Virus record (IMG/VR): IMGVR_UViG_3300033183_000342
Coordinates: 1-30,823 of that record
Length of the DNA stretch: 30,823 nt
Direction: 5' to 3' (one strand)
DNA from: a virus
Part shown: positions 12,761-20,000 of the stretch, in pieces
How positions within the stretch are numbered: position 1 is the stretch's first letter
Layout: the number at the start of each line of letters is the position of its first letter
Program-made: the position numbers and the translations under genes
Notes under the pieces: model-generated
Seen by the model: only the letters and a program-made list of their open reading frames with translations
Told to the model about the DNA's origin: nothing
Database searches by the model: none

Positions 12761-13334
12761 ATGCCTTCTTAACTGACTGCATTTTTTCACTTAATGAAGG
12801 CTCTGGCAGAGCTAAATCTTTCTTCCATACTCGAACCTTACGACCTAAGAATGGCTCTTTACTCCACCACTCTACTGGGTCTTTATCTGTACGATATTCA
12901 CGCCAATAATGAGCACGACAGTTATCAAGGTTCTCATAAGGATCTTCTCCAGCTACACAATGACAATCCCTCCAATAAGAGCTGTGTTGAGGTAGCTCGG
13001 AAGCAAGGTAGCCATCACGACTCACCCTAATGATCTCCTTAGTGATTTCTTTCAATACGATTGGAAACTTCTTTCGGATCTTCCCACGCACAAACTCATA
13101 GGCATAAACCTCTTGGTTGATGATAGGGCTATATCTGTTGACCACATAGTCCTTAAAGTATTCCTTACGAGCATAGGTGTCTGTAGTCTCAACCTTGAGG
13201 TTAAGGTCTTGCTCCATTGTCTCAATCAATCCCTGTATCCGAGTAATCATGCCCTTGATGAAACGATTGTCGGATTCCTCTTGTAAGGTGTTCACCACCT
13301 TGACCAGCATTTTAAGATCAGATTTATCACTCAT
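12759..13334 (-). CDS. Hypothetical protein with Cys/His cluster
   Basis: This is a 191-aa protein with AGGAG before the ATG. Residues 1-45 are helical and coiled (DLKMLVKVVNTLQEESDNRF, MITRIQGLIETMEQDL). The middle is basic (FVRGKIRKKFPIVLKEITKEI). Residues about 125-150 hold a Cys/His group (WRDCHCVAGED, NLDNCRAHYWREY) that could bind a metal. The C-terminus is Trp- and Lys-rich. No known family is recognised. The ATG overlaps the stop of the upstream gene, so the pair is coupled. Confidence 0.7.
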   Translation of the reverse strand: MSDKSDLKMLVKVVNTLQEESDNRFIKGMITRIQGLIETMEQDLNLKVETTDTYARKEYFKDYVVNRYSPIINQEVYAYEFVRGKIRKKFPIVLKEITKEIIRVSRDGYLASELPQHSSYWRDCHCVAGEDPYENLDNCRAHYWREYRTDKDPVEWWSKEPFLGRKVRVWKKDLALPEPSLSEKMQSVKKA

Positions 13335-13657
13335 TTTGTACTCCTATGCCAGTTCTTAGGGGTACGCTCCAAACCAAAGTCATAGTTGTCCACATACCCC
13401 CTTACGAGCCGAGCATACCTTTTATCTTCAACAGATATGCCCTCGTCTGCGAGCATCCCATCAAGGGTGGTCAACATACCCTTTCGCACATATCCAGTAT
13501 CGGCAAGATTACAAATCGCCCAATAGATCACCCGACCTGCTTCTTCGGGGTCAAAGTCATTATGGAGGAGGGAGAACACAAACTCCCCCACCTTTTGAAA
13601 CTGGGTAGAGCAATACCAATGCCCATCTAGTTTAGTCTTGTCATAGATCACTGACAT
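13331..13657 (-). CDS. Small protein, paralogue of 11547-11774
   Basis: This is a 108-aa protein from ATG 13657. The start is uncertain: GGAG directly abuts this ATG and would fit a GTG two codons later better. VGEFVFSLLHNDFDPEEAGR, YWAICNL and YARLVRGYVDNYDFGL align with the shorter protein at 11547-11774. Helices dominate. Its start lies exactly at the end of the left arm of an inverted repeat that encloses tRNA-Lys. Function unknown. Confidence 0.65.
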   Translation of the reverse strand: MSVIYDKTKLDGHWYCSTQFQKVGEFVFSLLHNDFDPEEAGRVIYWAICNLADTGYVRKGMLTTLDGMLADEGISVEDKRYARLVRGYVDNYDFGLERTPKNWHRSTK

Positions 13658-13784
13658 CTCCAATCATACAAGAGTGTTTAAATAATGGGCCGTCTGGGAC
13701 TCGAACCCAGAACCAACGGATTAAAAGTCCGGTGCTCTACCGATTGAGCTAACAGCCCTCATGCCACTCTTATATGATTGGGAG
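13658..13784. repeat. Inverted repeat flanking tRNA-Lys
   Basis: Left arm 13658-13676 (CTCCAATCATACAAGAGTG) and right arm 13765-13784 are inverted copies with one mismatch and one extra base. They enclose tRNA-Lys. The right arm carries, on the minus strand, the AATCATATAAG -10 element for the tRNA. Confidence 0.7.
13686..13758 (-). tRNA. tRNA-Lys (TTT)
   Basis: A complete 73-nt cloverleaf: acceptor GGGCTGT with ACGGCCC, D arm TAGCTC, anticodon loop CTTTTAA, T loop TTCGAGT, discriminator A. CCA is not encoded. It is enclosed by a near-perfect inverted repeat. Confidence 0.93.
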
Positions 13785-13789
13785 TCTCT

Positions 13790-14023
13790 TTATACCTCGA
13801 TTGAAGCCTCTTTTTCCTTAACCATGAGGTAGGCTAAAGCTAAGGCGATTTCGTAGGTTTCTGCTTGCACATGAACATGAACCTCATCAATGTGATTGTA
13901 GAGGTCATACCAAGGGGTCATAGGGTTATCCGAAGGGGTAGCATCAGAGGGGCGATATGTAAAGAAATCTAAAGGTGCAAGTTTCAGTTTCTCGCCCACC
14001 CTCTGAAAGTACCACCACTTCAT
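13790..14023 (-). CDS. Small hypothetical protein (77 aa)
   Basis: This 77-aa product opens MKWWYFQRVGEKLKLAPLDF, has a Pro/Asp-rich turn, then YDLYNHIDEVHVHVQAETYE and a helix ending in ALAYLMVKEKEA. It starts at an ATGA overlap with the zinc-ribbon gene upstream and is the last gene of a four-gene minus-strand operon. No family recognised. Confidence 0.65.
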   Translation of the reverse strand: MKWWYFQRVGEKLKLAPLDFFTYRPSDATPSDNPMTPWYDLYNHIDEVHVHVQAETYEIALALAYLMVKEKEASIEV

Positions 14024-14157
14024 GTCTTAGGCTTCCGAGTCTTTTCAACCTCGGAGTCTTGACACTTTTTAGTCCTGTTGGTCGCTGGACAAGAAGCTCC
14101 GTCCCAAGTCTCTCGCTTACATCGAGGACAGTAAATCGTTCTGTCTCCAAACATCAT
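14020..14157 (-). CDS. Small zinc-ribbon protein (45 aa)
   Basis: The frame starts at ATG 14157 with AAGGAG 6 bases upstream and overlaps both neighbours (TGA/ATG overlaps at each end), a strong sign of a real, coupled gene. The 45-aa product contains YCPRCKRETWDGASC and a fourth Cys in KKCQDSE, forming a C-x2-C...C...C zinc knuckle, followed by a basic tail. Small knuckles of this type often bind nucleic acid or host regulators. Confidence 0.65.
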   Translation of the reverse strand: MMFGDRTIYCPRCKRETWDGASCPATNRTKKCQDSEVEKTRKPKT

Positions 14158-14372
14158 TCTTTCTCCTTTTTAACAGAGTATTTATCTTCATACTTAGCGA
14201 TCTCTAAACCTACCCTAGTCGTAAAGTCATGGGCATCTAAATAAACTGAGATCAGCTCTTTAAGTTTAGCTTTATCTACAGGGTCTGCCACCTTGTCGGT
14301 GAGGTGGTTCAAAGACAAGACCTTATACGCACGAGCTTTATCCCTCTTTTCAACCCACTTGTCTTTAAACAT
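14154..14372 (-). CDS. Small charged helical protein (72 aa)
   Basis: The ATG at 14372 has AGGAG 5 bases upstream and overlaps the TGA of the previous gene (TGATG). The protein is mostly helical and basic (MFKDKWVEKRDKARAYKVLS, KAKLKELISVYLDAHDFTTR, KYEDKYSVKKEKE). No domain recognised. It is the second gene of a tightly coupled operon. Confidence 0.65.
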   Translation of the reverse strand: MFKDKWVEKRDKARAYKVLSLNHLTDKVADPVDKAKLKELISVYLDAHDFTTRVGLEIAKYEDKYSVKKEKE

Positions 14373-14587
14373 CACATCTCCTTGTATTCAAAACTCCCGT
14401 CCGAATAGTTGAACCTCTGATAGTTAACACGCTCTACTGAAAAGGACATGGGATTGCTTAGAAAGCTCTGCAATGAATAGGGCTTGTTATCAGCATACAG
14501 GGAAATGATCTTATTCTTGAGCAAAGACTGATCGACCTCAATGTACGATTTCTTGCCGTCTTTCTTGGTGAACTTAACTTTTTTCAT
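14372..14587 (-). CDS. Small basic protein (71 aa)
   Basis: This 71-aa product begins MKKVKFTKKDGKKSYIEVD and contains a beta-rich end (FSVERVNYQRFNYSDGSFEY). Only a weak GTGAG site precedes the ATG. Just upstream is TTTAACCCTTATGTGAG, a degenerate version of the GTAACCCC motif. It is first in the 14587-13790 operon. Function unknown. Confidence 0.6.
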   Translation of the reverse strand: MKKVKFTKKDGKKSYIEVDQSLLKNKIISLYADNKPYSLQSFLSNPMSFSVERVNYQRFNYSDGSFEYKEM

Positions 14588-14674
14588 AATGGACTCACAT
14601 AAGGGTTAAACGCATTAGGGGCCAGTCAGTATAGGTATTCAAACTACCCTATCTGCTTGGCTTAACCCACCTAA

Positions 14675-14746
14675 TGATCCATACGGGATTTGAACCCGTG
14701 TTGCCGGCGTGAAAGGCCGGAGTCCTTACCACTAGACGAATGGACC
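14675..14746 (-). tRNA. tRNA-Glu (TTC)
   Basis: A 72-nt cloverleaf: acceptor GGTCCAT with ATGGATC, D arm TCGTCTAGTGGT, anticodon loop CTTTCAC, T loop TTCAAAT, discriminator A. It is transcribed from a good sigma70-type promoter just upstream (14769-14796). CCA is not encoded. Confidence 0.93.
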
Positions 14747-14768
14747 GTAAGTGTGGTGGGGTGAGTCT

Positions 14769-14796
14769 TTTATATGATCTAAAGGCTACCTTGCAA
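14769..14796 (-). promoter_or_regulatory. sigma70-type promoter for tRNA-Glu
   Basis: On the minus strand TTGCAA (-35) is followed after 16 bases by TATAAA (-10), embedded in ATCATATAAA. The start point would fall roughly 15-20 bases before the tRNA. Confidence 0.55.
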
Positions 14797-14802
14797 GTTT
14801 TT

Positions 14803-15155
14803 TTAGTCGGGGAGTGTGAAGTAGCGTGGATCGGGGTTCTCCACAAGGAAAGCCACGATGTCCTCATCAGCCCCCTTACTAAGCACCTTGAGATCGCTCT
14901 CCTCGGACAACCGACAGTCATACTCGAAGAAGCCTCGAAGCGTGTCTAAGAGCTTATACTCTTTGAGGAGATGATGGACCGATCAAGGCTCTCATGGGGC
15001 CAGACGAGAGTCCCATCGAGGTAGTTTCTCCCACAGCCCATCATGGCAAACTGCCGAGCAAGGAAGGGGAGGTCGGGGTTCTCAAGGTGAGACTTGATCT
15101 CACGCTCAAAAGACCGGACATAGTTGAAGTGGTTGTAGTTTAAGTCGTATGGCAT
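14803..15155 (-). CDS. Hypothetical protein split by a -1 frameshift
   Basis: The ATG at 15155 (AAAGGAG upstream) opens a frame of 69 residues ending SIISSKSISS at 14946. The -1 frame then continues with good coding character (HLLKEYKLLDTLRGFFEYDC, SDLKVLSKGADEDIVAFLVE, PRYFTLPD) to TAA 14803-14805, but has no start codon near its beginning. Joining the frames around 14965-14990 gives a 117-aa protein. The shift may be a mutation, or recoding at TCA-AAG, where a Lys tRNA could slip from AAG to AAA. A GTAACCCC motif lies 24 bases upstream of the start. Function unknown. Confidence 0.6.
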
Positions 15156-15178
15156 TTTTGTTCTCCTTTACGAAGTGA

Positions 15179-15196
15179 TATAGATAAGGGGTTACA
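15179..15196 (-). promoter_or_regulatory. GTAACCCC-type promoter-like motif
   Basis: The minus strand reads TGTAACCCCTTATCTATA, a perfect consensus copy, 24 bases before the start at 15155. The stop codon of the small upstream gene (15192-15194) lies inside it. Confidence 0.65.
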
Positions 15197-15275
15197 CCTT
15201 GTTCAAGTAGAGGTGTAAATCAAACGCTGGTGCGAACACCATAGCGAAGATGACGGACATGATTACAAAGCTCAT
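15192..15275 (-). CDS. 27-aa hydrophobic peptide
   Basis: The ATG at 15275 has AGGAG 5-6 bases upstream and a GTAACCCC-type motif 33 bases upstream. The product (MSFVIMSVIFAMVFAPAFDL then HLYLNKV) is one short hydrophobic helix. It sits alone between two promoter-like motifs, which supports expression despite its size. A small membrane peptide is the best description. Confidence 0.5.
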   Translation of the reverse strand: MSFVIMSVIFAMVFAPAFDLHLYLNKV

Positions 15276-15307
15276 TCTTGCTCCTAGTGGTTGTTGATAC
15301 ACTAGGC

Positions 15308-15325
15308 TATAAATAAGGGGTTACG
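15308..15325 (-). promoter_or_regulatory. GTAACCCC-type promoter-like motif
   Basis: The minus strand reads CGTAACCCCTTATTTATA, one base off consensus, 33 bases before the 27-aa peptide start. It overlaps the stop region of the gene at 15321-15581. Confidence 0.6.
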
Positions 15326-15581
15326 ACTCTGATCGTAGCTTCTTCAACCCCTCAAGATTAAGCTCTGTATTTGGCTCTGTATCGAACTTTTCTCGGTTCT
15401 CTAGCCAACCCCTTGCGATCTTGTCTAAAAGCTCTGGAGGTAGGCTTATAGTGACTCTATCGCCAATGATCTGAACGAACCCACCATGCTTATCTATTTG
15501 GAGGTAGACTGCATCACCCTCAAACATCTCCTGGTAGACATGGAAATCATCACCATGTGCGATGGTAGCTTTTGTACTCAT
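15321..15581 (-). CDS. Hypothetical protein (86 aa)
   Basis: This is an 86-aa soluble protein with AAGGAG before the ATG. A beta-rich first half (ATIAHGDDFHVYQEMFEGDA, VYLQIDKHGGFVQIIGDRVT) is followed by a helix (LPPELLDKIARGWLENREKF) and a charged end. It is the last protein gene before the RNA-rich region and lies 20 bases 3' of tRNA-Tyr. No family recognised. Confidence 0.7.
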   Translation of the reverse strand: MSTKATIAHGDDFHVYQEMFEGDAVYLQIDKHGGFVQIIGDRVTISLPPELLDKIARGWLENREKFDTEPNTELNLEGLKKLRSES

Positions 15582-15601
15582 GTGTTGAAACTCCTTGATA
15601 G

Positions 15602-15684
15602 TGGACAGGGCAGGATTTGAACCTGCGTACTCTCACGAGGTCAGATTTACAGTCTGATGCCTTTAACCACTCGGCCACCTGTCC
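15602..15684 (-). tRNA. tRNA-Tyr (GTA)
   Basis: An 83-nt class II tRNA: acceptor GGACAGG with CCTGTCC, D arm GGCCGAGTGG, anticodon loop CTGTAAA, long variable arm (CCTCGTGAGAGTAC), T loop TTCAAAT, discriminator A. CCA is not encoded. Confidence 0.93.
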
Positions 15685-15689
15685 AAAGC

Positions 15690-15761
15690 GGGTAGACCTA
15701 ATCTACCCATAGTAGTAAGGTCTAGGGAAATCCTAGACCAGTTCTAGTCATTTCTACTATG
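15690..15761 (-). ncRNA. Structured RNA elements 5' of tRNA-Tyr
   Basis: Two adjoining structures. GGGTAGA/TCTACCC makes a 7-bp hairpin at 15690-15708. Then an outer 7-8 bp stem (CATAGTAG with CTACTATG) encloses an 8-bp hairpin (GGTCTAGG/CCTAGACC). All stems are perfect. There is no credible protein frame. Either spacer processing signals or a small stable RNA. Confidence 0.5.
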
Positions 15762-15883
15762 AGTACACTCCCCTTAAACGAATAAGGGTTGAATGAGTCT
15801 CAGGGTAGGGTAGGCTTAGACCCTCCAAGTGCATACCACCATCAGCGTAAAGCCCAATGCTAACATTTTCATTAGTATAACTG

Positions 15884-15943
15884 CTTACAGGATTTCTCCT
15901 GTAAGGGTAGGATTCTACATATACCATTTGCTGGTATATGTAG
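15884..15943 (-). ncRNA. Two perfect hairpins
   Basis: CTTACAGGA with TCCTGTAAG (9 bp; a GAAA tetraloop on the minus strand) at 15884-15905, and CTACATATACCA with TGGTATATGTAG (12 bp, 5-base loop) at 15915-15943. Stems of this length are unlikely by chance in 60 bases. The rest of the 15762-15950 stretch holds weaker pairings (for example CCCTT/AAGGG) and no gene I can support. Confidence 0.5.
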
Positions 15944-15957
15944 AGTATCACTACTCA

Positions 15958-16078
15958 AGTTAAGTAATATGTCATTTACGCCACCCCATGTGGTGGGTTT
16001 CGACTAGCTTAGTAATGGGGAGACTTCTGTCGGAAGGGAAATGTTAACGAACCCCCGACAGCAGACACTTACTTAACT
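15958..16078 (-). ncRNA. 121-nt structured RNA closed by a 10-bp stem
   Basis: AGTTAAGTAA at 15958-15967 pairs perfectly with TTACTTAACT at 16069-16078. Inside are CCACC/GGTGG (15981-15996) and CTGTCGG/CCGACAG (16027-16061). This makes a three-way-junction-like fold lying 6 bases 3' of the Thr-like tRNA on the minus strand. Not a recognised RNA family. Confidence 0.55.
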
Positions 16079-16084
16079 CCAACT

Positions 16085-16156
16085 TGTACCCACTAGGACT
16101 TACACCTAGACCTCTCATCTACAACGATGAGGCTCTGTTCGTTGAGCTACAGGTAC
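16085..16156 (-). tRNA. Aberrant tRNA, Thr(TGT)-like
   Basis: 72 nt with an intact acceptor (GTACCTG/TGGGTAC), D stem (GCTC/GAGC), anticodon stem (CTCAT/ATGAG) and T stem (CTAGG/CCTAG). The loops are abnormal. The anticodon loop is 8 nt (CGTTGTAG, best read as TGT), the D loop (AACGAACA) lacks the GG pair, and the T loop is TGTAAGT instead of TTCRANY. Both partners of the elbow contact are therefore missing. It may be decaying, or a specialised tRNA. CCA is not encoded. Confidence 0.6.
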
Positions 16157-16162
16157 ATAAGC

Positions 16163-16231
16163 GATCCCTAAACAAAGAAGCGACCAACAACCTAGAAGCT
16201 ATCTTTGCACAACCCATTTACATGAGGGATC
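16163..16231 (-). ncRNA. 69-nt structured RNA with 7-bp closing stem
   Basis: GATCCCT (16163-16169) pairs with AGGGATC (16225-16231), the length of a tRNA acceptor. An inner CAAAGA/TCTTTG stem (16173-16207) is supported by an adjacent GC pair. It lacks a T arm and anticodon loop. It lies between the Thr-like tRNA and tRNA-Asn. Confidence 0.5.
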
Positions 16232-16264
16232 ATGGTTGCTCTTAACCACCAACCAAAGGAGGTA

Positions 16265-16338
16265 CGCTCACTCAAGGATTTGAACCTTGGACCCACGGAT
16301 TAACAGTCCGTTGCTCTAACCAACTGAGCTAAGTGAGC
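16265..16338 (-). tRNA. tRNA-Asn (GTT)
   Basis: A 74-nt cloverleaf: acceptor GCTCACT with AGTGAGC, D arm TAGCTCAGTTGGTTAGAGC, anticodon loop CTGTTAA, T loop TTCAAAT, discriminator G. CCA is not encoded. Confidence 0.93.
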
Positions 16339-16345
16339 AAAAGAA

Positions 16346-16405
16346 ACCCCAAGACCATAACCCAAAGGTCAACGCTCAAATCGAAAAAGGAAATGAACTT
16401 GGGGT
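16346..16405 (-). ncRNA. 60-nt structured RNA with 8-bp closing stem
   Basis: ACCCCAAG (16346-16353) pairs perfectly with CTTGGGGT (16398-16405); GACC/GGTC (16353-16370) forms an inner hairpin. It fills the gap between tRNA-Asn and tRNA-Gly almost completely, leaving 7 and 3 bases. Confidence 0.5.
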
Positions 16406-16408
16406 CAA

Positions 16409-16481
16409 AGCAAGAGACGGGTCTCGAACCCGCGACATTCAGCTTGGAAGGCTGACGCTCTACCGACTGAGCTACTCTTGC
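16409..16481 (-). tRNA. tRNA-Gly (TCC)
   Basis: A 73-nt cloverleaf: acceptor GCAAGAG with TCTCTTGC region, D arm TAGCTCAGTCGGTAGAGC, anticodon loop CTTCCAA, T loop TTCGAGA, discriminator T. The stop codon of the upstream membrane-protein gene lies inside its 5' end. CCA is not encoded. Confidence 0.92.
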
Positions 16482-16744
16482 GATTTACTTTCAAACAACT
16501 CTGATGTCATTTCTAGTTTCACTTGGACTATCTTCTTCTCAAGTATCGTTGTAGCTACCCAACCAATAAGTGCAAGAAACGCCCAAGAAATCAAATAAGG
16601 TGTGTCTCCATTCTTGAATGTGACTACATAGAAGATGAGCATGAAAAAACAAACATAATGAAGCCCCTCACAGATACTCAAGTATTTATCGAGCTTCATT
16701 TTCTTGTTCACAAGAATTCTTAGATCTTCTACTCTCTTAGACAT
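16472..16744 (-). CDS. Two-helix membrane protein overlapping tRNA-Gly
   Basis: This is a 90-aa protein from ATG 16744, where AAAGGA lies 8 bases upstream; the longer frame to 16849 lacks such a site. A basic N-terminus (MSKRVEDLRILVNKKMKLDK) is followed by two hydrophobic helices (LHYVCFFMLIFYVVTF and ISWAFLALIGWVATTIL) and a charged tail. The last codons and the TAG stop lie in the first ten bases of tRNA-Gly, so mRNA and tRNA compete for the same transcript end. Function unknown. Confidence 0.65.
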   Translation of the reverse strand: MSKRVEDLRILVNKKMKLDKYLSICEGLHYVCFFMLIFYVVTFKNGDTPYLISWAFLALIGWVATTILEKKIVQVKLEMTSELFESKSQE

Positions 16745-16896
16745 GACACATTCCTTTTTGACATAAGATTGGCTCACACCCCTTCTACCAAAGATAGATG
16801 AGATGTGAACGAGAGGAATGAGCAGACTTCCCCGATACCGTATTCGCATTGGTGTAATGCCCTCGCTTCACCTTTAAACATTTTTGGAATACTCCC

Positions 16897-16938
16897 CTCT
16901 TGGTTAGGTTATGTTGCGAAACCATAGTTCCCCAAGAG
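16897..16938 (-). ncRNA. 42-nt stem-loop with 7-bp closing stem
   Basis: CTCTTGG (16897-16903) pairs with CCAAGAG (16932-16938); GGTT/AACC inside. The 16745-16896 stretch upstream of the membrane-protein gene holds only weaker pairings and no supported gene. Confidence 0.4.
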
Positions 16939-16982
16939 CTACATCTTCATCTACGGTGGCAATCAGAAGCGTAAGCATCCCC

Positions 16983-17014
16983 CAGACAAGACCCTTTCGG
17001 CAAACGCTTGTCTG
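16983..17014 (-). ncRNA. Hairpin with perfect 8-bp stem
   Basis: CAGACAAG (16983-16990) pairs with CTTGTCTG (17007-17014) around a 16-base loop. It is followed 6 bases later by the next structured element. Confidence 0.4.
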
Positions 17015-17020
17015 TTTCCC

Positions 17021-17070
17021 CATTCCCTCTATGCGTCCGTTTGAAGAGTTCCTATTAGGAACAGGGAGTG
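17021..17070 (-). ncRNA. 50-nt structured RNA with 8-bp closing stem
   Basis: CATTCCCT (17021-17028) pairs with AGGGAGTG (17063-17070, one G-T pair). GTTCC/GGAAC (17048-17062) forms a hairpin stacked directly on it. It abuts the 3' end of the tRNA-like RNA at 17069-17170. Confidence 0.45.
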
Positions 17071-17170
17071 GTTGCTTGATCTGGAATCGAACCAGAGTTT
17101 GAACCTCTTAAAGAAGCACCAACCCTATTAGAGATGACTCTCCAATAAGAGGTTGAATACCAATCAAGCA
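17069..17170 (-). ncRNA. tRNA-like RNA with encoded CCA and non-tRNA interior
   Basis: The ends are tRNA-like: a 7-bp acceptor (TGCTTGA/TCAAGCA), a canonical T arm (TCTGG, loop TTCGATT, CCAGA), discriminator A and an encoded CCA. Between acceptor and T arm there is no normal D or anticodon arm. Instead comes a single-stranded TTGGTATTC and then an 8-bp helix (AACCTCTT/AAGAGGTT) capped by a 37-nt region with its own hairpin (AGAG/CTCT). This plan resembles the tRNA-like domain of tmRNA in miniature. A tRNA carrying a small insertion is the alternative. Confidence 0.55.
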
Positions 17171-17172
17171 AA

Positions 17173-17246
17173 CGCACCAGGTAGGACTCGAACCTACGAC
17201 CAATGGCTTAGAAGGCCACTGCTCTATCCAACTGAGCTACTGGTGC
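17173..17246 (-). tRNA. tRNA-Arg (TCT)
   Basis: A 74-nt cloverleaf: acceptor GCACCAG with CTGGTGC, D arm TAGCTCAGTTGGATAGAGC, anticodon loop CTTCTAA, T loop TTCGAGT, discriminator G. Only 2 bases separate it from the tRNA-like RNA. CCA is not encoded. Confidence 0.93.
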
Positions 17247-17251
17247 AAAGT

Positions 17252-17341
17252 TAGACCCTCAAAAACTCATACTTTATCCCAATACACCATTCAACATAAA
17301 AGCTAAGTTAATATGTAGAATGAAAAAGATATGAGGGTCTA
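17252..17341 (-). ncRNA. 90-nt structured RNA with 10-bp closing stem
   Basis: TAGACCCTCA (17252-17261) pairs perfectly with TGAGGGTCTA (17332-17341). An inner stem pairs CATTC-A-ACATA with TATGT-A-GAATG (17288-17322, ten pairs around one A-A mismatch). AT-rich linkers join them. Together these make about 20 supported pairs. No protein frame. Confidence 0.6.
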
Positions 17342-17345
17342 GTAC

Positions 17346-17488
17346 ATCTGTGGGAGTCGAACCCGACAAGCTCCACCAAGAGGAGTCAGACATATTAAGC
17401 GTTCCGTTTTCGCTCTACCCTACGGAACAACTAGGGGGAGTATCTTCCAAAGAAGAAAGAGCTGATCTGATTTGCCTACCCCACAGAT
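17346..17488 (-). ncRNA. 143-nt structured RNA with 9-bp closing stem and T-arm-like end
   Basis: ATCTGTGGG (17346-17354) pairs with CCCACAGAT (17480-17488). The 3' end on the minus strand reads GTCGGGTTCGACTCCC, a T-loop-like sequence similar to the ends of tRNAs and tmRNAs, but its stem overlaps the closing stem. Internal hairpins include GTTCCG/CGGAAC, TCTTC/GAAGA and CTCC/GGAG with a 7-base loop; TGATCTG/CAGATCA competes with the closing stem. A standard tRNA does not fit. Confidence 0.5.
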
Positions 17489-17573
17489 CAAAGGGTAAGG
17501 AATGTCTGGGTAAGACACAAGGCATTGTTCAACACGACCTCATTTAAGAGGTCAAGGTTGATCTTGTCAAGTC

Positions 17574-17651
17574 TCATTTAGACTTCGGGGTATTTCCGCG
17601 TCCACCACCACTTGGGTTTCCGGACTTGGATGGATAGTTAGGGTTTCCCAT
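17574..17651 (-). CDS. Possible 25-aa Gly/Pro/Asn-rich peptide
   Basis: ATG 17651 follows GGAG by 8 bases. The product begins MGNPNYPSKSGNPSGGGRGN and ends TPKSK, with no hydrophobic residues apart from the start Met and a single Tyr. The stop lies in a small hairpin (AAGTCT/AGACTT, 17569-17585). It is embedded in an RNA-rich stretch, so it may be coincidence, a leader peptide, or a reading frame carried by a structured RNA. Confidence 0.35.
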   Translation of the reverse strand: MGNPNYPSKSGNPSGGGRGNTPKSK

Positions 17652-17679
17652 GACTATACTCCATGATTATCAATAGAAA

Positions 17680-17825
17680 TCTCTCAAGTTTGGACTAACT
17701 AGGTCAGAGAGAATCACCCCACCACATTATCTCACGGCGACCCCCCACATGGTAGATTTTGAGGGATTACAGGCTTACTCCTAGACTTGTAAGCAGTTCT
17801 TTATTTTCTAAGGTTATTGTCTAGG
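17680..17825 (-). ncRNA. Structured segment with several stems
   Basis: TCTCTC/GAGAGA (17680-17712), GCTTAC/GTAAGC (17773-17794) and CCTAGAC/GTCTAGG (17780-17825) are perfect stems, the last two mutually exclusive. GGCTTAC here can also pair with GTAAGCC at 17845-17851, linking it to the next element. The stretch 17489-17573 adds a GACCTC/GAGGTC hairpin (17536-17553). I see no gene besides the short peptide frame. Confidence 0.4.
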
Positions 17826-17833
17826 ATAAGACC

Positions 17834-17887
17834 CTCCCACCATTGTAAGCCTAATTTCCCCTAGTTAAAATAAAGGAATGGTGGGAG
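17834..17887 (-). ncRNA. 54-nt stem-loop with perfect 11-bp stem
   Basis: CTCCCACCATT (17834-17844) pairs perfectly with AATGGTGGGAG (17877-17887). The 32-nt loop contains GTAAGCC, which can pair upstream. It ends 7 bases from tRNA-Arg(CCT). Confidence 0.55.
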
Positions 17888-17894
17888 AACCTAG

Positions 17895-17968
17895 TACACC
17901 CAGCAGGACTCGAACCTGCGACACCCACTTTAGGAAAGTGGTGCTCTATCCAGCTGAGCTATGGGTGC
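17895..17968 (-). tRNA. tRNA-Arg (CCT)
   Basis: A 74-nt cloverleaf: acceptor GCACCCA with TGGGTGT (one G-T pair), D arm TAGCTCAGCTGGATAGAGC, anticodon loop TTCCTAA, T loop TTCGAGT, discriminator A. CCA is not encoded. It reads AGG and complements the TCT tRNA-Arg at 17173. Confidence 0.92.
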
Positions 17969-17973
17969 AAAGC

Positions 17974-18039
17974 TGATCTTCCCCTTGTCCAGCAACGCTT
18001 ACCTACACACCCAGTAAAAGAGGTAGATAGGGGAGATCA
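17974..18039 (-). ncRNA. 66-nt structured RNA with 10-bp bulged closing stem
   Basis: TGATCT and CCCC (17974-17984, one bulged T) pair with GGGGAGATCA (18030-18039); TACCT/AGGTA is the inner stem. It fills the gap between tRNA-Arg(CCT) and the truncated tRNA-like gene. Confidence 0.5.
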
Positions 18040-18042
18040 TAA

Positions 18043-18105
18043 AGCCAAGGCGAGGACTCGAACCTCACATCACCAAATGGTGTCTTGCCGTTAAACGACT
18101 TGACT
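18043..18105 (-). tRNA. Truncated tRNA, Gln-like
   Basis: 63 nt. An acceptor-type stem (AGTCAAG/CTTGGCT), a Glu/Gln-type D arm (TCGTTTAACGG) and a canonical T arm (TGAGG, TTCGAGT, CCTCG) are present. The anticodon arm is shortened to CACC-ATTT-GGTG, about 10 nt too short to hold a 7-base loop. TTG (Gln) can be read only if the stem is opened. Either a deletion pseudogene or a minimal tRNA. Confidence 0.5.
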
Positions 18106-18202
18106 CAAGTTAAGATCACACGAGTTTTCAAAGATGAATGTCAAGCGTCCATTGACGCTCACATGGGTATTATACAAAAGCACACTCGAAAGGAACAAAA
18201 AA

Positions 18203-18466
18203 ATGGACGAACTTATCTACCTCGAACCAAGAAATGTCTTTGATGAAATGATTATCGGTGTAGCTTCAAGACCTTACGCCATAGTATATGACCTCGATGC
18301 CATGATTTCTTACTGGACCAAAGAGTTTCAAGACTGCGATACTGATGAAGAACGAGCCTCGGAGATGGCTTGGGAGTGGTACGAATACAATGTACTCGGT
18401 TCATATCTCGGTGAGAACACTCCCCTATATGTCTCTAAGTCATCCCTCGACCACATTGAAAACTGA
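18203..18466 (+). CDS. Hypothetical acidic protein (87 aa)
   Basis: The ATG at 18203 is chosen because AAAGGA precedes it; the upstream extension to 18134 is not supported by a ribosome-binding site. The product (MDELIYLEPRNVFDEMIIGV, YAIVYDLDAMISYWTKEF, ASEMAWEWYEYNVLGSYLGE) is acidic and aromatic with a conserved-looking E-P-R-N-x-F-D start. A GCGTC/GACGC dyad at 18145-18158 lies in its leader. The 3' end overlaps the convergent gene by 27 bases. Function unknown. Confidence 0.7.
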   Translation: MDELIYLEPRNVFDEMIIGVASRPYAIVYDLDAMISYWTKEFQDCDTDEERASEMAWEWYEYNVLGSYLGENTPLYVSKSSLDHIEN

Positions 18467-18739
18467 CTCTAAGCTCTCAAGGAATGAGTTTACATCAAAG
18501 CCAGAGTAGTCGGATAAACTCATTGAGATGGTATTCGTGAGCTTTGTCTTACTTTGAGTTAGACTCGCTCTAAATGTTGGTGGCGGGTTCTTCTTACGAT
18601 TAAAAGACTTGAGATAGATGTTCTCAAACTTTTTGTATTCTCGGTTAGCGAAGCTGAAGTCGATATACCCGACATGGTTCTCAAGTGTCGGGTCGATCTT
18701 TACTCGGCTCTTCACGACTAAAAGTCCTGGCTTCTTCAT
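18440..18739 (-). CDS. Small basic hypothetical protein (99 aa)
   Basis: This 99-aa product starts MKKPGLLVVKSRVKIDPTLE with AAGGAG upstream. It is basic in the middle (NIYLKSFNRKKNPPPTFRAS) and Ser/Leu-rich at the end. It lies 11 bases downstream of the ligase gene and is probably the second gene of the ligase transcript. No family recognised. Confidence 0.7.
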   Translation of the reverse strand: MKKPGLLVVKSRVKIDPTLENHVGYIDFSFANREYKKFENIYLKSFNRKKNPPPTFRASLTQSKTKLTNTISMSLSDYSGFDVNSFLESLESVFNVVEG

Positions 18740-18750
18740 ATATAGTCTCC

Positions 18751-19698
18751 TTAAAAGTCAAAGGTACAGTCCTCTGGTAGCTTGTCCTCTCGCCAACGCT
18801 CTAGGACAGGGTGTCGCAACGCTCCTGTAGGGTATTGTCCATAAGCCTTGATCTCGGCTACCCTACCGACAAACTTTTCCATATCTTCACGAGGACCAGT
18901 CTCACCAAGAGAGCCTACGATACGGAGCGTTCCATTCTGATCATAGAAGCCATAGTTAAGCCCGACATATCCCTTGAGCCAAGGATCGGTATGCAGACCT
19001 TCGGGATAGAGCTTCCCATCTTGACGATAGACCTCACCTGGTCGGACTCGCCACTCACTAGGCTTTGCGTTTGCGTCCACGATCACCACATCATGGGTGT
19101 CGGTGAACTTGTGCTTCACCCATGCAGAGCGTGAGTTTGCCTTGTATGGAGCGTTTACCTTCTTGAGCATGATACCCTCATGCCCTCTATCAGAAGCGAT
19201 CTCCATGAGCTGTTCCGTAGTCCACTCGTTCATGTAGTAGAGCTGACTCAAGCTGATATGCTCCATGCTGTCCTCGATGACAGACTCAAGGATAGCCCTA
19301 CGCTTATCCCAAGAGAGATCTCCGACATACTGACCCTCATGGTAGAGGATGTCAAAGGCAACAAAGCCCAACGCTGTAGGGTCATCTGCTCGGAGGTTAG
19401 AGACACGATCTGATCCCTCTGCACCTTGCTTTGGAAGGATCTCACCGTCCAAGAGCGTACCCACAGGACACTCGTTTTGGATGTGATCCATACGAGCGAT
19501 GTCCTTTCCGATCCGACTCCAAGCACAAGTTGACGATACGAGCATACGGTGTCCATCGAGCTTCATCTCGCCCACCCATTGAGATGAACCAGCGATATTC
19601 TCTAGGACATTCTTGCCCTTATGACTGCCCTTAGCTAACTGGGGGCGAAGGAAGTTAAAAGTACCGCATGGGCTTGTTAGATTGATTGCCTTTGGCAT
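18751..19698 (-). CDS. ATP-dependent DNA ligase
   Basis: This is a 315-aa protein, a compact phage ligase that seals nicks in duplex DNA using ATP through a lysyl-AMP intermediate. Visible motifs: I, EMKLDGHR (adenylated Lys near residue 46); III, LLDGEIL; IIIa, GFVAFDILYHEG; IV, HEGIMLKK; V, SAWVKHK; and an OB-fold C-terminus with LRHPVLERWREDK as motif VI. There is no N-terminal DNA-binding extension, as is usual in small viral ligases. The ATG has AAAGGAG, and a GTAACCCC-type motif lies 42 bases upstream. Expected to act in replication and repair of phage DNA. Confidence 0.93.
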   Translation of the reverse strand: MPKAINLTSPCGTFNFLRPQLAKGSHKGKNVLENIAGSSQWVGEMKLDGHRMLVSSTCAWSRIGKDIARMDHIQNECPVGTLLDGEILPKQGAEGSDRVSNLRADDPTALGFVAFDILYHEGQYVGDLSWDKRRAILESVIEDSMEHISLSQLYYMNEWTTEQLMEIASDRGHEGIMLKKVNAPYKANSRSAWVKHKFTDTHDVVIVDANAKPSEWRVRPGEVYRQDGKLYPEGLHTDPWLKGYVGLNYGFYDQNGTLRIVGSLGETGPREDMEKFVGRVAEIKAYGQYPTGALRHPVLERWREDKLPEDCTFDF

Positions 19699-19739
19699 GA
19701 TGTTCTCCTTTCAGAGAGTGAGTGTGATTGATGTAGTGT

Positions 19740-19757
19740 TATAGATTAGGGGTTACA
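19740..19757 (-). promoter_or_regulatory. GTAACCCC-type promoter-like motif (ligase)
   Basis: The minus strand reads TGTAACCCCTAATCTATA, one base off consensus, 42 bases upstream of the ligase start. Confidence 0.65.
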
Positions 19758-19767
19758 GGGTCAGAGA

Positions 19768-19941
19768 TTACCACTGTACCTTTCTTCGGCAAGCCTTCTT
19801 GTTAGCTTGCTTCTTGTTATCCTTGTGGCGAGCACCCTTACCCATCCACTTGGAAGCAGACCCACCCGACTCGAAGTGAGCCTTACGAGCGGCAGCTTTG
19901 GTTTCGGTGTGGAGGTTTCGTGCTTTGTTCTTGCGAGCCAT
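19768..19941 (-). CDS. 57-aa highly basic protein
   Basis: ATG 19941 has AAAGGAG and a GTAACCCC motif upstream. The product (MARKNKARNLHTETKAAARK, FESGGSASKWMGKGARHKDN, KKQANKKACRRKVQW) is almost 40% Lys, Arg and His with no acidic cluster, so nucleic-acid or ribosome binding is likely. The longer reading frame in another phase on this strand is a shadow: it lacks the ribosome-binding site spacing. It precedes the ligase gene by about 70 bases. Confidence 0.7.
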   Translation of the reverse strand: MARKNKARNLHTETKAAARKAHFESGGSASKWMGKGARHKDNKKQANKKACRRKVQW

Positions 19942-19982
19942 TGTTGTTCTCCTTTCAAGAGTTGATCGGGCTACACAATCAC

Positions 19983-20000
19983 TATAGATAAGGGGTTACA
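19983..20000 (-). promoter_or_regulatory. GTAACCCC-type promoter-like motif
   Basis: The minus strand reads TGTAACCCCTTATCTATA, perfect consensus, 42 bases before the start at 19941. It is divergent from the copy at 20051. Confidence 0.65.

Follow-up and report, generated by a model that had tools for sequence, protein, structure and literature searches.

Anticodon-armless tRNA mimics and closed-stem spacers in a phage tRNA array: candidate punctuation for tRNA processing

Small transfer RNA (tRNA)-like structures such as mascRNA and menRNA serve as RNase P processing signals and not for decoding, and the tRNA-like domain of transfer-messenger RNA (tmRNA) keeps an acceptor and a T-arm, its anticodon arm being replaced and pseudoknots lying nearby. 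The T4 tRNA region encodes two small RNAs, rnaC and rnaD (species 1 and 2 RNA), whose role is given as unknown in the cited sections (PMC3014915, PMC9697503). GOLLD and ROOL, in the part of the source cited, are structured phage RNAs often found near tRNA islands, GOLLD often exceeding 800 nt (PMC12286853), and phage tRNA genes are described as altered or multiplied against tRNA-cutting nucleases in sections dealing with tRNA-Tyr of T5 and T6 (PMC13096335, PMC11555353). Here we describe a tRNA cluster in IMG/VR virus record IMGVR_UViG_3300033183_000342 (positions 1 to 30,823; the whole stretch of 30,823 nucleotides is called the window), in which the gaps between tRNAs hold a tRNA mimic without anticodon arm, an H-type pseudoknot ahead of it, further tRNA-like RNAs and spacers closed by stems (Table 1).

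Nine tRNAs were called by ARAGORN and Rfam, 9/9 on the minus strand of the window, and no other Rfam family exceeded its gathering score there. Positions 13001-20000 are 100% identical to part of a 375,691-base virus contig, whose nine Rfam tRNAs all lie inside the studied cluster. Four tRNA-like RNAs overlooked by both ARAGORN and the Rfam tRNA model, the mimic included, were found within 2.4 kb, and at 12 of the 18 listed junctions the gap between adjoining features is 0-7 nt. Compared with its relatives, the cluster has gaps that resolve into several RNA kinds. The interpretation that we favour, and to which we assign about an even probability, is that the array would consist of real tRNAs alternating with modules read by the tRNA-maturation machinery and acting as processing punctuation.

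Table 1. Features of the tRNA cluster and their positions in the window (z, folding score against shuffled sequence).
Feature	Position	Strand	z	Remarks
tRNA-Tyr (GTA)	15602-15684	-		ARAGORN, Rfam
Closed-stem hairpin	15708-15761	-	-4.3	upstream of tRNA-Tyr
13-bp perfect hairpin	15914-15944	-	-7.0 (15910-15948)	
Closed-stem RNA, first part of block Y	15958-16078	-	-3.5	directly after the 16156-16086 cloverleaf; stem AGTTAAGTAA/TTACTTAACT
Cloverleaf RNA	16086-16156	-	-2.9 (16085-16157)	D-loop AACGAACA without GG; T-loop TGTAAGT; 6-bp anticodon stem with 6-nt loop (or 5 bp with 8 nt)
Closed-stem spacer	16163-16231	-	-2.9	ahead of the 16156-16086 cloverleaf
tRNA-Asn	16338-16265	-		ARAGORN, Rfam
Closed-stem spacer	16346-16405	-	-3.2	between tRNA-Gly and tRNA-Asn; present only in W and L013, identical
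tRNA-Gly	16481-16409	-		ARAGORN, Rfam
Conserved non-coding block X	16775-17071	-		contains stems 17021/17070, 16983/17014 and 16897/16938
tRNA-like RNA, 100 nt	17072-17171	-	-5.1	8-bp acceptor; perfect T-arm TCTGG-TTCGATT-CCAGA; D/anticodon region replaced by other hairpins
tRNA-Arg(TCT)	17246-17173	-		ARAGORN, Rfam
Closed-stem spacer	17252-17341	-	-3.4	TAGACCCTC/GAGGGTCTA; between mimic and tRNA-Arg(TCT)
Armless tRNA mimic, 52 nt	17343-17394	-		acceptor TATGTCTG/CAGATGTA; A-A mismatch; D-arm CTCC-TCTTGGT-GGAG; linker CTTGTC; T-arm GGG-TTCGACT-CCC
H-type pseudoknot	17401-17436	-		P1 CCCTA/TAGGG; P2 GTTCCG/CGGAAC; A-rich third loop; ends 6 nt before mimic
Closed-stem spacer	17834-17887	-	-3.8	after tRNA-Arg(CCT); 11-bp perfect stem
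tRNA-Arg(CCT)	17968-17895	-		ARAGORN, Rfam
Closed-stem spacer	17974-18039	-	-1.5	between 4-nt-loop tRNA-like RNA and tRNA-Arg(CCT); stem TGATCTCCCC/GGGGAAGATCA
tRNA-like RNA, 4-nt anticodon loop	18043-18105	-	-1.3	arm CACC-ATTT-GGTG; no ARAGORN call

Relatives were reached through the neighbouring ligase gene, which gave 14 loci; five distinct cluster versions could be aligned (W, that of the window, L013, L010, L011 and L016), and L041, L060, L075 and L119 were added through whole-record tRNA searches and pattern scans. L041 lies within a 296,642-base record, and its ligase is 68% identical to that of the window. Near or exact duplicates were not counted separately (L009 equals W, L012 equals L011, L014 and L015 equal L016, and L121 equals L119), and L013, which equals W at the mimic and pseudoknot sites, was excluded from the counts of both.

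In the mimic at 17394-17343 six nucleotides stand in place of the anticodon arm. Eight mimics were found in four lineages: one each in W and L119, and two each in L010, L075 and L041. The D-arm and the T-arm are 3-10 nt apart in 8/8; the anticodon arm is absent, and for this reason the mimic is classed as tRNA-like and not as a tRNA. Pairs were counted on a hand alignment, that produced by MAFFT for the eight mimics being structurally wrong. Pairing was kept in 56/56 acceptor cells and 32/32 D-stem cells, with changes on both sides in 7/7 and 4/4 columns, respectively; when 3' strands were swapped among mimics the means fell at 26.4 and 16.0, and 0 of 2000 swaps reached the observed counts. 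On this comparison, armless mimics are maintained, their pairing persisting despite strong sequence turnover. The label of degenerate tRNAs, which an earlier sequence-only reading of the cluster had offered, is therefore wrong for them, because decay would not keep the stems paired. The T-loop reads TTCRA in seven of the eight (CTCGATA in the second L075 copy), and the same seven carry the GG in the D-loop that the strict descriptor requires, the second L075 copy having ATTG. Acceptor and T-arm stack to 11-12 layers in the seven strict mimics, again as the descriptor requires, and the 12-layer stack and TTCRA loop that serve as a test for tRNAs were found.

This strict descriptor gave seven distinct matches in 3.0 Mb (both strands counted) and five in a set of five complete or almost complete records (1.26 Mb, overlaps included), all of them in or beside tRNA clusters. 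No match was obtained in 1.0 Mb of mononucleotide-shuffled sequence, in 151 kb of regions from T4, TSW001, Stubb, S-PM2, KpCHEMY26 and XacN1, or, even when the GG rule was dropped, in 51 kb of tRNA regions (37 and 38 tRNA matches) of two jumbo phages related through the sheath-like protein described below. A relaxed descriptor gave 14 distinct matches in 5.9 Mb (both strands): the eight mimics, three overlaps with annotated tRNAs in control phages, and three others that were taken as chance. A second mimic scan returned 13 stretches, and a tRNA search of L148-L154 found none in six of seven records and 33 in G018, the descriptor giving no match; none of the 14 stretches returned by a GTDB scan with the mimic pattern matched the descriptor. 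The comparison of W, L010 and L119 is independent of the descriptor, because their copies share the same place, with the pseudoknot ahead and a TAG-R-CCCTC spacer behind.

The pseudoknot is present in 11 copies in eight phage versions, with a shared order of P1, a short loop, GTTCCG/T (ACTCCG in one), P1', an A-rich loop and a C/AGGAAC-type strand. P1, which the pattern scan did not demand, is paired in 44/44 cells with changes on both sides in all four columns, and P2 is paired in 65/66 cells. From the 3' end of the pseudoknot to the next acceptor there are 6 nt in eight copies, 5 nt in two and 3 nt in one (11/11 within 3-6), and that acceptor belongs to a tRNA in five cases (L011, L016, L060 and two L041 copies) and to a mimic in six (W, L010, L119, two L075 copies and one L041 copy). 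Given this fixed spacing to tRNA and mimic acceptors alike, the role of the pseudoknot is probably tied to the acceptor 5' end and not to decoding. The broad pattern scan returned 100 stretches, most of them chance; among the 110 placements examined in 96 loci, 73 had complementary ends and ten of these a P1 of at least 4 bp, five in tRNA clusters (L060, L075, L115 twice, and L140, which is the L012 contig) and five outside them (L053, L066, L092, L093 and L139). A strict scan of five records found six in tRNA clusters and one elsewhere (L224), and a shorter pattern matched the two sheath-related jumbo phages at five places, all of them outside the tRNA clusters.

The comparison with T4 made by the sequence-only reading proved apt in one respect: there too, non-tRNA RNAs lie within a phage tRNA cluster, and the 3' end of rnaC (139 nt) is a perfect T-arm, with a stem of 5 bp and the loop TTCGAAT, that resembles the RNA at 17171-17072. 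That RNA has an acceptor-like closure, of which rnaC shows 5/7 pairs by eye, and the window array holds more such RNAs than the two of T4. Comparing rnaC and rnaD with 15501-18250 by blastn gave short chance-level pieces (best 14 nt, E 0.15, on the T-arm), a generic scan found no H-type pseudoknot in either, and the strict descriptor found no armless mimic in the 4-kb T4 region. Like the tRNA-like domain of tmRNA, the mimics combine a kept acceptor and T-arm, a replaced anticodon arm and a nearby pseudoknot; unlike it, they keep a D-stem with GG, and they are far too short. A weak tmRNA match fell on the mimic T-arm (17352-17364, E 0.56), while in the window ARAGORN called no tmRNA and none reached the Rfam gathering score (best 10.5 bits against 47). 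The mascRNA and menRNA structures differ in belonging to eukaryotic nuclear long non-coding RNAs, in lying outside tRNA arrays and in having no pseudoknot leader. Neither GOLLD nor ROOL gave an Rfam match in the window, and the tRNA-Tyr of T5 and T6 are, in the cited sections, full tRNAs, no armless form being described there (PMC13096335, PMC11555353). In INPHARED phages, blastn found nothing for the L075 and X pieces and one 24-base match (E 0.6) for the L119 piece; among the papers listed by full-text searches of the open-access part of PMC, none showed an armless phage tRNA mimic.

What the mimic retains are the parts that RNase P and CCA-adding enzymes read, and what it has dropped is the decoding arm. 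If the array is punctuated for processing, its modules would be read by the enzymes of tRNA maturation (RNase P and those of CCA addition) and not by the ribosome: the mimic would present an elbow of acceptor, D-arm with GG and T-arm that RNase P and the CCA-adding enzyme should accept and that does no decoding, headed by a pseudoknot ending 5-6 nt ahead of the place where RNase P would be expected to cut, and closed-stem spacers would occupy other junctions. Together, mimics and spacers would set cut sites, stop flanking tRNAs from misfolding on one another and shield the fragment ends, which would allow clean release of each tRNA and, in L041 and L075, of the downstream mRNA, as in tRNA punctuation. 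In both of these relatives one mimic lies just ahead of an open reading frame (ORF) of 68 aa, with AAGGAGAC before its ATG. The 68-aa protein (MSEKSSKNGYE...; L041 1907-2113, L075 1971-2177) is conserved and directly follows the mimic and a CACACA tract. The phage of the window also encodes a 948-aa protein with two tandem PolyA_pol (CCA-enzyme type) domains (G001:C1:257901-260747, minus strand; L170 902-3748), predicted to be a duplicated enzyme of CCA-adding or poly(A)-polymerase type. What the sequences show directly are the folds, conserved with compensatory changes, the fixed spacing and this CCA-enzyme-like gene; that the array is transcribed, cleaved by RNase P and CCA-tailed, and that it is punctuated, we infer.

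An elbow kept without a decoding arm, and the tRNA-Tyr rebuilt in L011 and L016, would also suit stable trans-acting RNAs: the mimics, perhaps with the other tRNA-like RNAs, might be decoys for host nucleases or sensors binding tRNA elbow or acceptor, or might mimic anticodon-cut tRNAs. We regard this as a tentative possibility, since the pseudoknot heads ordinary tRNAs too and an ORF follows two of the mimics, an arrangement more in keeping with processing than with a free decoy. A wider proposal, about equally tentative, is that a jumbo-phage clade might carry a new viral RNA class, a pseudoknot-headed tRNA mimic lacking the decoding arm, made in the tRNA array, CCA-tailed by the phage-encoded duplicated nucleotidyltransferase (at least in the phage of the window) and acting in trans on host tRNA-handling proteins as decoy or regulator, beside tRNA-like RNAs with altered elbows or anticodon loops. 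Punctuation is favoured over decoys, as over remnants, other signals and chance, which are taken up below, because of the retained parts, the fixed spacing, the close junctions, the mimics preceding ORFs and the 948-aa enzyme.

A number of results weigh against punctuation. Folding scores for the mimic (z -0.5), for block X (-0.6 at 16790-17071) and for part of block Y (0.05 at 15795-15875) are no better than for shuffled sequence, and pseudoknot plus mimic gave +0.7 with a program that cannot fold pseudoknots; support for the mimic is comparative instead. As a control, the T-stem hardly varies among mimics, 71/2000 swaps reaching the observed count, and the control for P2 is likewise weaker (1/2000); the P1 of L119, with three Watson-Crick pairs and one G-T, is the weakest and was missed by the strict scan. 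The descriptor was written after the first examples, so that 7/8 mimics satisfy it by construction. Two of the eight mimics (the other copies of L010 and L041) have no upstream pseudoknot, and L011, L016 and L060 have the pseudoknot and no mimic there. The 948-aa enzyme was found in one of five records searched and in none of the other four, and genes for RNase III, SmpB and RtcB were not found in the five, which may be incomplete. Promoter-like sites in 15600-18250 numbered two, both on the plus strand, against 3.7 expected; transcription of the array is assumed, because none lies on the minus strand. Finally, relatives are uninformative for three of the 11 listed stems, among them 16346/16405 and 17834/17887, found in W and L013 only.

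The other tRNA-like RNAs are of different make. The one at 17171-17072 is conserved in W, L010, L011 and L016, with changes on both sides in two acceptor pairs, and its T-arm is supported by a C-G to T-A change of the T-stem in L010; RNAalifold prefers a different inner fold without the T-arm. ARAGORN called the L010 copy a tRNA-Pyl, a call that is probably false, because the region of the would-be anticodon arm varies in the other three copies. The cloverleaf at 16156-16086, called by neither ARAGORN nor Rfam, was recovered by RNAalifold over five genomes, with three pairs changed on both sides; L011 and L016 break one pair of the acceptor. In the D-loop and T-loop of this cloverleaf, CG and GU stand where GG and UC are usual, a swap that could preserve the elbow contact. 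The RNA at 18105-18043 could alternatively be read as a tRNA-Gln(TTG) with one stem mismatch; at the same place L010 has GTCAG-ATGA-CTGAC within a 7-bp acceptor and T-arm. In the tRNA-Tyr of L011 (7724-7799) and L016 (13073-13148) the D-arm is gone and an 11-nt stretch, TACTCCTAAGA, stands instead; it is perfectly complementary to the variable region, and an additional 11-bp helix would thus carry the anticodon arm. Both were missed by ARAGORN and scored 44-50 bits in Rfam. A match to an Rfam plastid 5' untranslated region family on the plus strand of the tRNAs was set aside as antisense tRNA noise.

The 11 closing stems listed by the sequence-only reading are all present (11/11). On the plus strand the best run is free of G-T in eight, one G-T is needed in each of 17021/17070 and 17974/18039, and 17252/17341 is a perfect 10-bp core within a 12-bp run having two G-T; as the tRNAs lie on the minus strand, such G-T pairs are C-A mismatches in the minus-strand RNA. 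A shuffle test was run over 1758 nt with four tRNAs and the ORF at 16472-16849 masked and tRNA-like RNAs unmasked (60 dinucleotide shuffles, span 30-145), its counts including stems absent from the list of 11. Perfect stems of at least 7, 8, 9, 10 and 11 bp numbered 23, 14, 9, 4 and 2, against 9.2, 2.5, 0.55, 0.12 and 0.05 expected and shuffle maxima of 18, 6, 3, 2 and 1, respectively. Against 147 windows elsewhere in the 375,691-base record, without masking, the region has 16 stems of at least 8 bp (mean 5.3, maximum 12), 9 of at least 9 bp (mean 1.73, maximum 6) and 4 of at least 10 bp (mean 0.67), one other window having 5. That any such non-coding stretch would yield these stems draws some force from the expected abundance of 7-bp stems and from this one window; it is nonetheless refuted for the set by the stems of at least 9 bp and by the comparative evidence, and is to be considered very improbable. 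From both sets of counts, 7-bp stems alone prove little, and the whole set is not chance.

Folded against shuffled sequence, a check that the sequence-only reading had proposed, most of the 11 elements scored like real tRNAs (five of which gave z -2.6 to -3.6), the weakest being 17346/17488 (-0.9), 17021/17070 (-1.3) and 17974/18039; those not in Table 1 also include 16897/16938 (-2.7) and 16983/17014 (-3.1), and all these scores are biased, the elements having been chosen for their stems. These are minus-strand values; on the plus strand the elements gave -1.7 to -4.6, about equal, and folding energy is therefore uninformative on strand. The second proposed check, compensatory change in relatives, came out positive for several stems, 15958/16078, 16163/16231 and 16983/17014 among them; 16346/16405 and 17834/17887 gave no information, and 17346/17488 was not supported. 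In L011 and L016 the stem 15958/16078 reads GCGAAGATCATT/AATGTTCTTCGT, its 12 positions comprising 10 Watson-Crick pairs, a G-T and a mismatch, and 8/10 pairs are kept in L010; by this comparison the sequence has turned over with pairing largely kept. In L010, GATCCCT/AGGGATC of 16163/16231 becomes GACCCCT/AGGGGTC, one compensatory change of T-A to C-G, and 16983/17014 has a single compensatory change. Where 17021/17070 has a C-A mismatch in W, L013 pairs C with G; in L011 and L016 the sequence of this stem differs, with full pairing if G-T is allowed. Stems 16897/16938 and 17252/17341 are conserved with G-T changes or none, the latter being the same in L010 and carrying one G-T in L119, with a conserved core TTGAAYGGTGT. 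The L010 counterpart of 17974/18039 has both strands (TTATCCTCCCC/GGGGGGATAA), paired with a bulge by eye and with mismatches in an ungapped count, and 15708/15761 keeps there six Watson-Crick pairs and one G-T of eight, with one pair broken and no compensatory change. The strands of 17834/17887, identical in L013, were not found in L010, L011 or L016, and the stem thus gives no evidence of covariation. The exact 5' strand of 17346/17488 was likewise not found in these three; its 3' half belongs to the mimic, and this stem is probably spurious. A tmRNA reading of 17346-17488 was rejected, as there was no tmRNA call and no SmpB, and relatives show pseudoknot and mimic instead. The claim that all elements follow the same plan thus stood in part only, because several RNA kinds are mixed and some closing stems are unsupported by relatives. 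Of the three natures proposed for them, degenerate tRNAs and processing modules suit the data better than small stable RNAs, in view of the four unannotated tRNA-like RNAs and the close junctions.

Some of these hairpins might act otherwise, as terminators or attenuators or as DNA recombination signals. The 15914-15944 hairpin is kept in L013 with changed pairs and, by eye, with its loop inverted relative to the window, the pattern that a flipping DNA element would leave; TTTCTTTT comes after the spacer 16346-16405, and in L041 tRNA-Leu is followed by a hairpin that, with its T-run, resembles a terminator. A terminator scan of 15600-18250 nevertheless found two sites against 2.2 expected, both of them T-arms (of tRNA-Gly and of the 18105-18043 RNA), and DNA signals would not be expected to show a T-loop, a D-loop GG, an A-rich pseudoknot loop and a fixed acceptor distance, which makes such roles quite improbable.

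Two further parts of the array are conserved without coding character. Block X has 88% mean column identity in five genomes, with single-base indels, and block Y (16086-15690) 78%, with non-triplet indels; part of Y was found again in L060 (E 0.004), and a profile of X found its own group alone above threshold and two weak matches in L019 and L020 (E 0.096). No signature of RNase P RNA or of group I/II introns was recognised in X, and Rfam gave no match. This conservation bears on whether the elements are remnants, that is, tRNA genes decaying after deletions together with chance or mobile-element hairpins. Whole elements between tRNAs are gained and lost among relatives, many being absent from L011 and L016, and three of the 11 stems rest on W and L013 alone, as remnants would have it. 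Mimic and pseudoknot stems have however stayed paired through turnover, block X is conserved, and stems are in excess over both shuffles and the rest of the genome. Decay is contradicted for the mimic, the pseudoknot, X, the first part of Y and the 16156-16086 cloverleaf and survives for single spacers without relatives; as an account of the array it seems unlikely.

Other observations concern the phage and the small frames of the cluster. Across its full length, a window protein of 1619 aa shares 37% identity with an unannotated reading frame of an uncultured 485-kb phage, and over 60% it shares 30% identity with the tail sheath of Tunturiibacter phage Tunturi_5; it also matched sheath proteins from smaller phages, and its Pfam sheath match lies below the curated cut-off. 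Because of this sheath-like protein and the 375,691-base record, the phage is very likely a jumbo myophage. A Gly/Arg-rich mini-protein of 25 aa (MGNPNYPSKSGNPSGGGRGNTPKSK; 17651-17574, minus strand) lies between tRNA genes in W, L013, L010, L011 and L016, and its C-terminal part can also be read in L060 without a preceding in-frame ATG. A reading frame of ~90 aa (16745-16472, minus strand) within the array has hydrophobic stretches by eye and is absent from L011 and L016. A structured-looking motif, CTACGGT ... CTTAAATC ... TCTGGTGGCA ... CAGTCAGA, is shared by L075 (~1555-1650) and L046 (reverse complement, ~2237-2325), adjoining tRNA-Met/Arg in these two distant phages.

Phage tRNA clusters are annotated by tRNA finders, which here overlooked the tRNA-like RNAs. 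A natural elbow free of the anticodon arm, with seven varied relatives and a pseudoknot locked to it by spacing, would allow a direct test of recognition by RNase P, by CCA-adding enzymes and by tRNA-cutting defences, and the mimics may help with the long-standing puzzle of rnaC and rnaD in T4. Should RNAs that lack this arm prove common, a layer of the RNA biology of viruses would have gone unseen.

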